Assembly: GCA_945949735.1 (NCBI GenBank)
Contig: CAMFFO010000002.1
Span: forward strand, 1 to 64,000
Direction of reading: 5' to 3'
From: an uncultured Clostridia bacterium
GTDB taxonomy: Bacteria; Bacillota; Clostridia; Oscillospirales; Oscillospiraceae
DNA length: 64,000 nucleotides
The notes beneath the pieces are model-generated. The model was not told the DNA's origin. It ran no database searches and worked only from the letters and a program-made list of their open reading frames with translations. This document shows positions 37,375 through 42,652 of the stretch, piece by piece (within the stretch, counting starts at the first letter, position 1; each line of letters begins with the position of its first letter). Both the position numbers and the translations under genes were made by a program.

Positions 37375-37438
37375 CCGGTTTGTGCATTGTTGACAAAAAA
37401 CTACAGAATTGTTAAGAGAATATGTAGTGTTTGCCTCG

Positions 37439-37467
37439 TTGACAAATGTCCTCCCATGAGATACAAT
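37439..37467 (+). promoter_or_regulatory. Sigma-A type promoter of the liv leader/operon
   Basis: TTGACA (37439-37444) - 17 bp - TACAAT (37462-37467). Confidence 0.8.
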
Positions 37468-37497
37468 AGCTTCAAATTCAAGGGGAGGTACAAAGCA

Positions 37498-37668
37498 ATG
37501 ACCGAACGGTTTTCTTCTGCAACCAGTCGTTCCAACCGCTGTTTCGCAGCGGCTGCCTGTGCTGCCTCCTCTTCCGTCCGCGATCTATTGGACACTGCCG
37601 AATTGCTGGTAGTGTCCATTTTCGCGCTTTGCCTGCTGGTACTGCGAATTATGCTGCCAATTGGGTAA
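37498..37668 (+). CDS. Small 56-aa ORF, candidate Leu/Val/Ile-rich leader peptide of the liv operon
   Basis: AGGGGAGG RBS 9 nt upstream; MTERFSSATSRSNRCFAAAACAASSSVRDLLDTAELLVVSIFALCLLVLRIMLPIG*. Confidence 0.7.
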   Translation: MTERFSSATSRSNRCFAAAACAASSSVRDLLDTAELLVVSIFALCLLVLRIMLPIG

Positions 37669-37691
37669 CCGGAATTCATGTTGTATGAAGA

Positions 37692-37722
37692 AGCGGTTAC
37701 GACGAAACGTAGCCGCTTTTTT
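37692..37722 (+). terminator. Intrinsic terminator / attenuator upstream of livJ
   Basis: AGCGGTTACG acgaaa CGTAGCCGCT TTTTT; competing GTAACCG (37665-37671) complementary to CGGTTAC (37694-37700). Confidence 0.75.
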
Positions 37723-37749
37723 ATAGTATGAAGAAAAGGAGAATACATT

Positions 37750-38958
37750 ATGAAAAAGGTACTTGCACTTGTTTTGGCTGTTATCATGGTGATGTCCCTG
37801 GCCGCCTGTGGCAGCAAGACGGATACCCCCACCGAGGCTCCGAAAACCGACGATGCCCCGCAGACCACCGAGGCTGTCGGCTCCGACGCCGCTCCTGCCG
37901 GTGCGATCAAGGTCGGCGCCATCGGCCCTCTGACCGGTGACTACGCCATCTACGGAAGCGCTGTTGCCAATGGCATCCAGATCGCAATCGAGGAGATCAA
38001 CGCCAAGGGCGGCCTGCAGTTCGAGCTGCTGAGCGAGGATGATCAGGGCGATCCCACCATGTCCGTGAACGCCTACAACGTGGAGATGGAAAAGGGTATG
38101 CAGGTTCTGCTGGGCACCACCACCTCCGGCGCCTGCGCCGCGGTTGCTGACGTTGCCAACGAGGAGCGCGTATTCGTTCTGACTCCCTCCGCTTCCAACC
38201 CCGTTGTCAACGAGGGTAAGGATAATGTTTACCAGGTTTGCTTCACCGACCCCAACCAGGGCGCTTCCTCCGCACAGACCATTAAGAGCCTGGGCCTGGG
38301 CACCAAGATCGCTGTGATCTGGAACAACGCGCAGGACTACTCCACCAGCATTTACCAGTCCTTCATGGCGAAGGCTCAGGAGATCGGCCTGGAGGTCGTT
38401 TCCGACACCACCTTCTCCGATGACGGCAACGCTGACTTCTCCGTCCAGCTGCAGGACGCTGCCAACGCCGGCGCGGATCTGGTATTCCTGCCCATCTACT
38501 ACACCCCCGTTGTTGCCATTATGCAGCAGGCTGACGCCGCCGGTTACGGCTTCAAGTTCTTCGGCGTTGACGGCATGGACGGCCTGCTGGCCGTGGAAGG
38601 CTTCAACACCGCTCTGGCCGAAGGCTCCTACATGCTGACCCCCTTCGATGCCAACAAGACCGATGACCTGACCGCTTCCTTCGTGGCCAGCTACGAGGCC
38701 AAGTTCGGCGTTACCCCCAACCAGTTTGCCGCTGACGCCTATGACGCCATGTACATTTTCTACGCTGCCTGCCAGGAGCTGGGCTTCACCTCCGAGACGA
38801 CTCCTCAGGAGATCTGCGAGGCCATGATCCCCTGGATGCAGAGCTTCACCTACACCGGACTGACCGGCGAGGGCATGGTATGGACCGCTGACGGCTGCGT
38901 GAGTAAGGTTGCCACCGCTTACGTTATCAGAGACGGCGCTTACGCTTCCGTTGACTGA
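37750..38958 (+). CDS. livJ: Branched-chain amino acid ABC transporter substrate-binding lipoprotein
   Basis: Lipobox LAACGSK; KVGAIGPLTGDYAIYGSAVANGIQIAIEEINAKGG. Confidence 0.92.
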   Translation: MKKVLALVLAVIMVMSLAACGSKTDTPTEAPKTDDAPQTTEAVGSDAAPAGAIKVGAIGPLTGDYAIYGSAVANGIQIAIEEINAKGGLQFELLSEDDQGDPTMSVNAYNVEMEKGMQVLLGTTTSGACAAVADVANEERVFVLTPSASNPVVNEGKDNVYQVCFTDPNQGASSAQTIKSLGLGTKIAVIWNNAQDYSTSIYQSFMAKAQEIGLEVVSDTTFSDDGNADFSVQLQDAANAGADLVFLPIYYTPVVAIMQQADAAGYGFKFFGVDGMDGLLAVEGFNTALAEGSYMLTPFDANKTDDLTASFVASYEAKFGVTPNQFAADAYDAMYIFYAACQELGFTSETTPQEICEAMIPWMQSFTYTGLTGEGMVWTADGCVSKVATAYVIRDGAYASVD

Positions 38959-39126: not shown

Positions 39127-40011
39127 ATGACAATGTTCTTGTCCAACCTGATTAGTGGGATCAGCCTGGGCAGCGTCTATGCCATCATCGCGCTGGGATA
39201 CACCATGGTGTACGGCATTGCGAAAATGCTGAACTTTGCTCACGGCGATATTATTATGGTGGGCGCGTATATCTGCTTTACCTGTCTGTACAGTCTGGGG
39301 CTTTCTCCTGCGGTGGGGGTTCTGGCCTCTGTGATGGTGTGTACGCTGCTTGGCATCCTGATCGAACGTCTGGCCTACAAGCCTCTGCGGCAGGCCACAT
39401 CTCTTGCCGTGCTGATCACTGCCATCGGCATGAGTTATTTTCTGCAGAATTTGGCCCAGATGATCTGGGGCGCCAACCCCAAGAGCTTCCAGACCGTGAT
39501 CCCCGCCGGAAATCTTTCCATTATGGGCGGAGAACTGAAGATCTCCTATGTTTCCATGGTTACCATCGCCGCATCCGTGGTCGTTATGGTAGCCCTTTCG
39601 CTTTTTGTCGGACGCACCAAGATGGGACGCGCCATGCGCTGTGTGTCGGAGGATAAGGGCGCGGCACAGCTGATGGGTGTCAACGTGAATCTGACCATTT
39701 CCGTGACCTTCGCCATCGGTTCCGCCCTGGCCGCCATAGCCGGTGTGCTGATGTGCTCGGCTTATCCCACCCTGAAGCCGACCACCGGCGCCATGCCCGG
39801 CATCAAGGCGTTCACCGCTGCGGTATTTGGCGGCATCGGCTCCATTCCCGGCGCAATGCTTGGCGGCATTCTGCTGGGTGTCATCGAAATCCTGGGCAGA
39901 GCCTACGTCTCCTCGGAACTGGGTGATGCGTTTGTTTTTGCGGTGCTGATCCTCGTCCTGCTGATCAAACCCACCGGTTTGCTTGGCAAGAAGATTCACG
40001 AGAAGGTGTGA
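39127..40011 (+). CDS. livH: Branched-chain amino acid ABC transporter permease
   Basis: LISGISLGSVYAIIALGYTMVYGIAKMLNFAHGDIIMVGAY. Confidence 0.92.
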   Translation: MTMFLSNLISGISLGSVYAIIALGYTMVYGIAKMLNFAHGDIIMVGAYICFTCLYSLGLSPAVGVLASVMVCTLLGILIERLAYKPLRQATSLAVLITAIGMSYFLQNLAQMIWGANPKSFQTVIPAGNLSIMGGELKISYVSMVTIAASVVVMVALSLFVGRTKMGRAMRCVSEDKGAAQLMGVNVNLTISVTFAIGSALAAIAGVLMCSAYPTLKPTTGAMPGIKAFTAAVFGGIGSIPGAMLGGILLGVIEILGRAYVSSELGDAFVFAVLILVLLIKPTGLLGKKIHEKV

Positions 40012-40021
40012 GGTGGCAGAT

Positions 40022-41080
40022 ATGAAAAAGACAACGGTTTCCAAGCTGCTCCAAAAGTACCTTCCCTATGTGATCGTGATCGTGGGCTTCGCGGTGTGCC
40101 AGTCCATGGTATCCGCTGGTACGATGCCCCGCACGACGAAATCCCTGCTGATTCCTGTGTGTGTCTATATTGTAATGGCGGTTTCCCTGAACCTGACCGT
40201 CGGTATTTCCGGCGAGCTGAGTTTGGGCCATGCCGGCTTCATGTCAATCGGCGCCTTTACCGGTATCGTGATCGCGGCTTATGTCCGTGAGGTGTTCGGA
40301 TGCTCGGAATCGCTGCAGCTGCTGATTTCCATTGCTGCCGGCGGTGTGATGGCTGGGCTATTCGGTTTCCTGATCGGAATTCCGGTGCTCCGTCTGCAGG
40401 GCGACTACCTGGCCATTGTGACCCTGGCCTTCGGTGAGATCATCCGCAACATACTAAACTGCATTTACATCTCCGTTGACGGCTCCGCGCTGCGGTTCTC
40501 CTTTAATCAGCCCAATCTTCCCGGTAAGCTCCTGTTCCGCGGCCCCACCGGCGCCACCGGCGTCACCCGGATCGCTACCTTCACGGCGGGATTCATCCTG
40601 GTTCTTTTCACGCTGTTTGTGGTTTTGAATCTGGTGCATTCCCGCTCCGGCCGTGCGATCATGGCTGTTCGGGACAACAAGATCGCTGCGGAAGCCTGCG
40701 GACTGGACGTGACCAAATACCGCATGATGGCGTTTGTTACCTCCGCAGCTTTGGCAGGTATGGGCGGCGCGCTGTTCGGACAGAACTATTCCACGCTGAC
40801 TCCCGCCAATTTCTCCTTCAATGCGTCGATCCTGATCCTTGTGTATGTGGTGCTGGGCGGTATCGGCAACATCACCGGATCGATCATTGCCGCAACGATT
40901 CTGTATGTCCTGCCTGAGGAGCTGCGTGCCTTTGCTGACTACCGGATGCTGGTTTATGCTGTGGTTCTGATCGGGGTCATGCTGCTGACCAACAACCGGA
41001 CCATCAAGAATTTCCTGAATTCCCTTCGGGAAAAGATTCGCGGAAATGAAGAGAAGAAGGGCGGTGCGCTGCATGAGTGA
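40022..41080 (+). CDS. livM: Branched-chain amino acid ABC transporter permease
   Basis: LNLTVGISGELSLGHAGFMSIGAFTGI...RDNKIAAEACGLDVTKYRMMAFVTSAALAGMGGALFG. Confidence 0.92.
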   Translation: MKKTTVSKLLQKYLPYVIVIVGFAVCQSMVSAGTMPRTTKSLLIPVCVYIVMAVSLNLTVGISGELSLGHAGFMSIGAFTGIVIAAYVREVFGCSESLQLLISIAAGGVMAGLFGFLIGIPVLRLQGDYLAIVTLAFGEIIRNILNCIYISVDGSALRFSFNQPNLPGKLLFRGPTGATGVTRIATFTAGFILVLFTLFVVLNLVHSRSGRAIMAVRDNKIAAEACGLDVTKYRMMAFVTSAALAGMGGALFGQNYSTLTPANFSFNASILILVYVVLGGIGNITGSIIAATILYVLPEELRAFADYRMLVYAVVLIGVMLLTNNRTIKNFLNSLREKIRGNEEKKGGALHE

Positions 41081-41930
41081 CAAAATCAAGCGGAAAAGCG
41101 ACACAAAGATGGTTCCGTTCCCTTCCCACGCCATTGTTCCTGAGCGGGATTTGGGGAGCCGGCCCGTGCTGGAATGCAGCCACCTGGGGATTGATTTCGG
41201 CGGCCTGCGTGCCGTGGATGATTTTAACCTGACCATCGGAAAAACGGAAATCGCCGGCCTGATCGGCCCCAACGGCGCAGGCAAAACCACGGTTTTCAAC
41301 CTGCTTACCAAGGTATACCAGCCTACCTCCGGAACCATCATGGTAAACGGCAAGGATACTGCCGGAATGAATACCGCTCAGGCCAACAAGCTGGGCCTGG
41401 CGAGAACCTTTCAGAACATTCGACTGTTCAATCAGATGACTGTGGAGGATAATGTCCGCATTGGCCTGCACAATCAGATTTCTTACGGTATGTTTTCCGG
41501 TATTCTCCGCCTGCCGCCTTACTGGTCAGGGGAGAAGAAGCAGCATGAAAAGGCTATGGATCTTCTGTCCATTTTCCACATGGAGAATATGGCCAATGAG
41601 AAAGCGGGAAGTCTGCCCTACGGAGCTCAGCGTCGTCTGGAAATCGTCCGGGCCCTGGCCACGAATCCCAGCCTGCTGCTGCTGGATGAGCCTGCCGCCG
41701 GTATGAATCCCAAGGAAACGGAAGAGCTGATGGATAACATCATCAAGATCCGTGATCAGTTCCAGATCGCCATTATGCTGATCGAACATGATATGAATCT
41801 GGTTATGGGCATCTGCGAGGGCATCTGCGTTCTGAACTTCGGCAGGGTCATCGCCAAGGGTACTGCCGAAGAGATTCAGCATAATCCGGAAGTGATCGAG
41901 GCCTACCTGGGCCGTCAGAAGGAGGACTGA
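41073..41930 (+). CDS. livG: Branched-chain amino acid ABC transporter ATP-binding protein
   Basis: LIGPNGAGKTTVFNLLTKVYQPTSG...LARTFQNIRLFNQMTVEDNV; overlaps livM stop. Confidence 0.92.
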   Translation: MSDKIKRKSDTKMVPFPSHAIVPERDLGSRPVLECSHLGIDFGGLRAVDDFNLTIGKTEIAGLIGPNGAGKTTVFNLLTKVYQPTSGTIMVNGKDTAGMNTAQANKLGLARTFQNIRLFNQMTVEDNVRIGLHNQISYGMFSGILRLPPYWSGEKKQHEKAMDLLSIFHMENMANEKAGSLPYGAQRRLEIVRALATNPSLLLLDEPAAGMNPKETEELMDNIIKIRDQFQIAIMLIEHDMNLVMGICEGICVLNFGRVIAKGTAEEIQHNPEVIEAYLGRQKED

Positions 41931-41932
41931 AT

Positions 41933-42652
41933 ATGAGTGATAAAAAGTGCCTTCTTCGGGCGGATAATCTGAATGTATATTACGGCTCCATCCATGCCAT
42001 TAAGGATGTGTCCTTTCATGTGGATGAGGGCGAGATCGTGACGCTGATCGGCGCAAACGGCGCGGGAAAGACCACCACGCTGAATACCGTGGCGGGACTC
42101 ATGAAGCCCAAATCCGGCACGGTCACCTTTGATGGGAAGGTTATTTCCGGAATTCCGGCCGACCGGATCGTGTCCTTGGGCATGGCTCTTTGCCCGGAGG
42201 GACGACGGATATTCCAGCATATGACGGTTCGGGAGAATCTGGAAATGGGCGGCTACAGCCGTCCCGGAAGCGAGATTGAAGATTCCATCGAGCAGGTGTT
42301 CCAACGGTTTCCCCGGCTGAAGGAGCGGCGCAAGCAGATCGCGGGCACCCTCTCCGGCGGCGAGCAGCAGATGCTGGCAATGTCCAGGGCTCTGATGAGC
42401 AAGCCCAAGCTGATGATGCTGGATGAGCCCTCCATGGGTCTGGCGCCCATTCTGGTGGATCAGATCTTTGATATTATCAAGGAGCTCCATCAGGCGGGAA
42501 CAACGATTCTCCTTGTGGAGCAGAATGCACGCAAGGCGCTGCAGGTGGCTGATCGGGCCTATGTCCTTGAAACGGGCAGCGTGACCCTCAGCGGCACCGG
42601 CGCAGAGCTGGCCAGCTCCGACTCGGTCAGAAAAGCGTACCTCGGCGGTTAA
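41933..42652 (+). CDS. livF: Branched-chain amino acid ABC transporter ATP-binding protein
   Basis: LIGANGAGKTTTLNTVAGLMKPKSG...LSGGEQQMLAMSRALMSKPKLMMLDEPSMGLAPILV. Confidence 0.92.
   Translation: MSDKKCLLRADNLNVYYGSIHAIKDVSFHVDEGEIVTLIGANGAGKTTTLNTVAGLMKPKSGTVTFDGKVISGIPADRIVSLGMALCPEGRRIFQHMTVRENLEMGGYSRPGSEIEDSIEQVFQRFPRLKERRKQIAGTLSGGEQQMLAMSRALMSKPKLMMLDEPSMGLAPILVDQIFDIIKELHQAGTTILLVEQNARKALQVADRAYVLETGSVTLSGTGAELASSDSVRKAYLGG

Follow-up and report, generated by a model that had tools for sequence, protein, structure and literature searches.

Genes and regulatory features at the liv locus

The window analysed here (the whole 64-kb stretch of DNA) carries on its forward strand an operon predicted to serve the import of branched-chain amino acids (BCAA), with the gene order livJHMGF. 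Its first gene, livJ (37750–38958), encodes a BCAA-type periplasmic binding protein (Pfam Peripla_BP_6). Downstream lie livH (39127–40011) and livM (40022–41080), both BPD_transp_2 by Pfam, livG (41073–41930, start uncertain; ABC_tran with BCA_ABC_TP_C), and livF (41933–42652; ABC_tran), so that livH to livF span 39127–42652. The upstream neighbours encode, again by Pfam, an FtsW-type protein and a penicillin-binding-protein transpeptidase.

The features of interest occupy positions 37439–37725 of the + strand, ahead of livJ. They begin with a sigma-70-type promoter (37439–37467), in which TTGACA (37439–37444) and TACAAT (37462–37467) are separated by 17 nt; it agrees with the consensus at 11 of 12 positions, is unique within the window, and is conserved at the livJ loci of the same genus. 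Transcription would start near 37474. The conservation reaches far past the hexamers (TTGACAAATGTCC..GAGATACAAT), a GACA-AA-TGTC palindrome lies over the −35 element, and the promoter is retained in relatives from which the attenuator is gone; the extended conservation and this persistence suggest a putative regulator binding site. A TTGTGCATTGyATACAAAAA-like sequence (about 37378–37400) also recurs in many relatives, some 50 nt upstream of the −35 element.

Between the promoter and the operon is an apparently translatable leader ORF of 56 codons plus TAA (37498–37668), preceded by the ribosome binding site AGGGGAGG (37481–37488); an equivalent Shine–Dalgarno sequence and the start codon are conserved in relatives, and the homologue in one of them (G005) is 75% identical. 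The N-terminal part of the ORF is poor in Ile, Leu, and Val and the last 14 codons are rich in them, with 15 such residues among the final 29. Two hairpins lie within the ORF. The smaller, CCGCTGT/GCAGCGG (37536–37552), recurs in relatives. The larger, TGGACACTGCCG/TGGTAGTGTCCA, has its arms at 37590–37599 and 37608–37617, extends to 12 bp when folded (37589–37618), and stands immediately 5′ of the putative control codons CTT TGC CTG CTG GTA CTG CGA ATT (37627–37650), which were assigned from the sequence, the enrichment described below, and footprint arithmetic.

The leader stop codon (TAA, 37666–37668) is contained in the sequence GTAACCG (37665–37671), the exact complement of CGGTTAC (37694–37700). 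The latter belongs to an intrinsic terminator recognizable at 37692–37722, whose stem is lengthened by folding to 37684–37725 (18 pairs, z = −4.4); its 5′ arm (37684–37701) shares CGGTTAC with the antiterminator, and its 3′ arm (37708–37725) takes in the U-tract. A simple terminator scan missed this terminator, which folding recovers. In the antiterminator, comparison and folding place an apical helix, TTCATG-TTG-TATGAA, at 37675–37689. Promoter, ribosome binding site, ORF, hairpin arms, terminator, and the GTAACCG/CGGTTAC match had all been read from the sequence in a preliminary description, and each was recovered at its position.

Complementarity of 7 nt was reached in 199 of 5000 shuffled sequences (∼4%) and is weak evidence on one sequence alone, so the case for a switch rests on the comparison of genomes.

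Codon content of the leader

Taken over the 34 leaders of a non-redundant set, the last 14 codons specify Ile, Leu, or Val in 238 of 476 cases (50%) and codons 2–21 in 24 of 680 (3.5%). The background is 24.6% in the genes of the window, and when the tail is read in its other two frames the share is 13%. The codons enriched at the control position match the operon that follows, LivJHMGF by Pfam, as is expected of an attenuator. CTA, TTG, and GTA, which the preliminary description had thought uncommon, do make up only 0.5%, 6%, and 9% of their codon families in the neighbouring genes, and the leader tails use the rare codons GTA, ATA, and TTG more often than expected.

One might instead regard the ORF as a gene for a small functional membrane protein that precedes livJ by chance, the hairpins being incidental. 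The 56-aa product is indeed hydrophobic at its C-terminus, and two stretches of the peptide are seen again in relatives, an LDTA..VVSI segment and, in the N-terminal part, a CC..AAACSSARI motif. The tail, however, is free to diverge in sequence and length among relatives while its Ile/Leu/Val content stays near 50%, which bears out the earlier proposal that the peptide is conserved by its BCAA codons and not as a protein. No Pfam family was found for the product, the stop codon co-varies with the terminator arm (see below), and the ORF is altogether missing in several relatives. The LDTA..VVSI segment coincides with the larger RNA hairpin and is conserved partly because it encodes that hairpin. 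We therefore consider a membrane protein highly improbable. The CC..AAACSSARI motif recurs although the segment that carries it is nearly free of Ile, Leu, and Val.

The rare Arg codon CGA is also strongly over-used in the tails, where it was observed 17 times against 0.9 expected and accounts for 17 of the 32 Arg codons. The codon at 37645–37647 and its equivalents in relatives are often found within CTG CGA ATT or GTA CGA ATT. This excess, together with the conservation of peptide segments that precede the control region, is what would speak for translation being slowed in general, or arrested by the nascent chain as in an inducer-sensing arrest peptide, and not by branched-chain codons. Against such a reading, residues that would lie in the exit tunnel with the ribosome at the control codons are partly conserved and those at the stall site are not; the three enriched amino acids are chemically alike and fit the transporter encoded downstream; and the N-terminal part of the leader nearly lacks them. 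An arrest peptide or a general slowing of translation is thus very unlikely, and we retain stalling at BCAA codons as the preferred reading.

Pairing of the antiterminator with the terminator

The preliminary description had held that GTAACCG and the terminator compete for the same arm. Almost all relatives retain this mutually exclusive pairing and show compensatory changes in it. In the main class of leaders, 94.3% of the cells of the antiterminator helix are paired, against at most 56% in slid alignments; the corresponding value for the terminator is 93.2%. The mean duplex energy of cognate strands is −15.35 kcal/mol, compared with −12.76 ± 0.41 kcal/mol when strands are re-paired between genomes, and none of 10,000 re-pairings was as low. 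Cells changed on both sides number 8, versus 3.2 in shuffles (0/500), and the covariation score is 0.249, versus 0.200 (2/500), p-values throughout being nominal, as the leader sequences are related and not independent. These covariation figures refer to the leaders from within the genus.

Of the 32 main-class leaders, 22 have their stop codon inside the antiterminator strand and the other 10 have it a short distance 5′ of the strand. Where the stop codon lies within the strand, its identity goes with that of the terminator arm: UAG is accompanied by CGGCU in all four leaders that use it and UAA by CGGUU in nine of 10, while UGA is found with CGGUU in five, where G-U pairs form, and with CGGCU in three. 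These last three represent the small clade whose antiterminator helix contains an A-C mismatch (L160, L161, L163, and L166). In some leaders the central A-U pair is replaced by G-C, and L156, L164, L171, and L193 have divergent sequences that are still complementary. L176 showed no such pairing in the duplex test. Judged by sequence comparison, the antiterminator helix is maintained by compensatory changes in nearly all relatives.

Folding agrees with a switch of this kind. RNA that ends before the 3′ arm of the terminator folds as the antiterminator (about −14.5 kcal/mol), the complete RNA folds as the terminator, and RNA without GTAACCG yields the terminator only. Control would presumably be kinetic, as in known attenuators.

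Conserved hairpins and a terminator might instead point to a riboswitch that binds a metabolite, or to a leader bound by a protein, acting on the terminator without leader translation, and a weak Rfam match to nqrA-II (25.6 bits, where the gathering score is 55) could be cited in support. We reject that match as chance, because it is sub-threshold, disappears once the searched stretch is made slightly longer, and concerns a motif that comes from Pasteurellaceae (PMC11109978). No Rfam family reached its gathering threshold at the window locus or at any related locus. Since the frame-specific codon bias and the placement of the stop codon require translation, a translation-independent leader is extremely improbable, and a switch operated by the ribosome is the reading that we follow below.

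The hairpin upstream of the control codons

The hairpin at 37589–37618 is kept in nearly all leaders, with 342 of 350 cells paired. Its loops measure 5 or 8 nt, that is, they are one codon apart, and a C-G to U-A change is seen in L156 and L157. It is missing from L154 and L162 and is therefore not indispensable. The hairpin noted in the preliminary description is thus present and conserved; it lies clear of the antiterminator strand and is therefore no classic “1:2” protector. We suggest instead that it probably has a transcription-pause, or synchronising, role.

A different helix, between the control codons and the antiterminator strand, was considered for the part of protector, namely 37629–37635 with 37662–37668. 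It is suggested by the lowest-energy fold of the window sequence, yet in 31 leaders this region folds no better than its shuffles. In the same comparison (31 leaders, mean z −0.21) no conserved upstream helix that would sequester the antiterminator strand in the absence of a ribosome was found beyond chance. A sequestering 1:2 pause hairpin is a usual feature of attenuators, not an indispensable one, and the switch would work without one.

Proposed mechanism

Taken together, these results make it very probable that the liv importer operon is controlled by ribosome-mediated transcription attenuation, with charged Leu, Ile, and Val tRNA as the signal sensed. The anatomy of the leader and the evolutionary conservation of its pairings are matters of observation; from them we infer leader translation, pausing, and the response to amino acids.

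RNA polymerase would probably pause past the hairpin at 37589–37618 until the first leader ribosome catches up. When BCAA are plentiful, this ribosome would pass the control codons and reach the stop codon. As the stop codon is part of the antiterminator strand, a ribosome positioned there is expected to mask GTAACCG (37665–37671), the extent of its footprint being taken by arithmetic. The terminator (37684–37725) could then fold, and transcription would end before livJ. When BCAA are scarce, the ribosome would stall at codons 44–51 and leave the antiterminator strand free to pair with CGGTTAC before the 3′ arm of the terminator is made, which would allow read-through into livJHMGF.

Distribution among relatives

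The relatives examined are metagenome-assembled genomes titled Oscillospiraceae and Candidatus Faecousia. Of the 101 genus genomes, 63 were found to have LivJ. Loci were collected by a search for the internal hairpin and, in the other genomes, by inspection of the sequence that precedes LivJ; most other matches of the hairpin scan to the genome contigs were unrelated palindromes. The complete arrangement of promoter, leader ORF, antiterminator strand, and terminator was found upstream of livJ in 34 of the 63 LivJ-bearing genomes (Candidatus Faecousia-like Oscillospiraceae). A further 11 keep the promoter and have lost the leader ORF (L158, L159, L165, L167, L172, L177, L182–L184, L186, and L191), and these loci are apparent losses of the attenuator. 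In some of them part of the terminator survives. Both promoter and leader are lacking in several genomes whose LivJ homologues are more distant.

Beyond the genus, a covariance model running from the hairpin to the terminator was searched across the order and the family, and a pattern search was made across the family. The matches of the model outside the genus were mostly generic terminators, and among those inspected only L215, L234, L236, and L237 were real relatives; the pattern search contributed L254, L255, L257, L258, and L259. Homologous leaders of 49–106 codons stand ahead of livJ-type genes elsewhere in the family, in at least six further genera, with 5–16 Ile, Leu, or Val within up to 20 residues past the hairpin. 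The leaders of L259, L260, L261, and L269, from other genera, have 83–106 codons and very long Ile/Leu/Val runs, enough for a membrane-spanning stretch.

A bolder and rather unlikely proposal is that these leaders of up to about 106 codons form a class of their own throughout the Oscillospiraceae. In such a class the synchronising hairpin and the switch would be separate, there would be no protector helix, and occupancy of the stop codon would be the sole “off” signal, while a second input beyond BCAA (e.g., nascent-peptide or arginine sensing) might come from the N-terminal peptide, with its conserved motif, and from the rare CGA codons.

Regulators and amino acid supply

CodY was found in none of the 31 genus genomes searched. 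Ketol-acid reductoisomerase (KARI, ilvC) was found in 29 of 101 genus genomes and was undetected in the other 72, nearly complete genomes included; it was not found in the genome of the window, which is 81.5% complete. It occurs in 18 of 34 genomes with the attenuator and in 11 of 67 others, counts that take no account of shared ancestry. The missing ilvC suggests widespread BCAA auxotrophy in the genus. Given that CodY was not found in 31 genomes and that just 29 of 101 yielded ilvC, many of these bacteria may obtain their BCAA mainly by import, and the proposed attenuator, if true, explains how likely auxotrophs tune it.

Comparison with known systems

For BCAA biosynthesis, ribosome-mediated attenuation is an established mechanism in Gram-negative bacteria and has been shown in Listeria and Staphylococcus aureus (PMC6123439, PMC5864092, PMC5794164). 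A search of the open-access literature brought up no attenuator described for the liv importer operon of any member of the Clostridia; the mechanism is classic and the switch family seems undescribed.

Several other RNA devices invite comparison. T-box leaders likewise sense tRNA charging for amino acid genes in Firmicutes, whereas the liv leader would do so via the translating ribosome; this genome has eight T-box matches (one above the cut-off), and no match to RF00230 was found in the window and none at liv. The livJ motif SRC-36-2 of Streptomyces is also an RNA element upstream of LIVBP-type genes, but it is a translation-level riboswitch candidate with Shine–Dalgarno sequestration (PMC11109978). 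The hisS*/hisZ histidine leader peptides of Bacillus (PMC2965389) are another case of leader-peptide attenuation in Firmicutes, with a different amino acid and different genes.

The enterobacterial ilvGMEDA, ilvBN, and leuABCD operons have leader peptides of 28–32 aa with 4–15 BCAA codons (PMC6123439). The switching logic is alike, while the liv leader differs in target and sequence, is longer, has no detectable 1:2 protector, and places its stop codon within the antiterminator strand. Closest in kind are two attenuators of BCAA biosynthesis in Firmicutes, Rli60 of Listeria ahead of ilv-leu (PMC5864092) and the leucine-rich attenuator peptide of the S. aureus ilv-leu operon (PMC5794164), which share with the liv leader a BCAA-rich peptide, mutually exclusive antiterminator and terminator, and presumed stalling on BCAA codons. 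These two control biosynthesis in combination with CodY, whereas the liv leader has an importer as its target, is longer, and carries a conserved hairpin before the control codons. The liv leader would thus extend leader-peptide attenuation from the biosynthesis of BCAA to their import, in uncultured gut Oscillospiraceae, and its stop codon, which doubles as antiterminator strand and co-varies with the terminator, records the evolution of the mechanism with unusual clarity.
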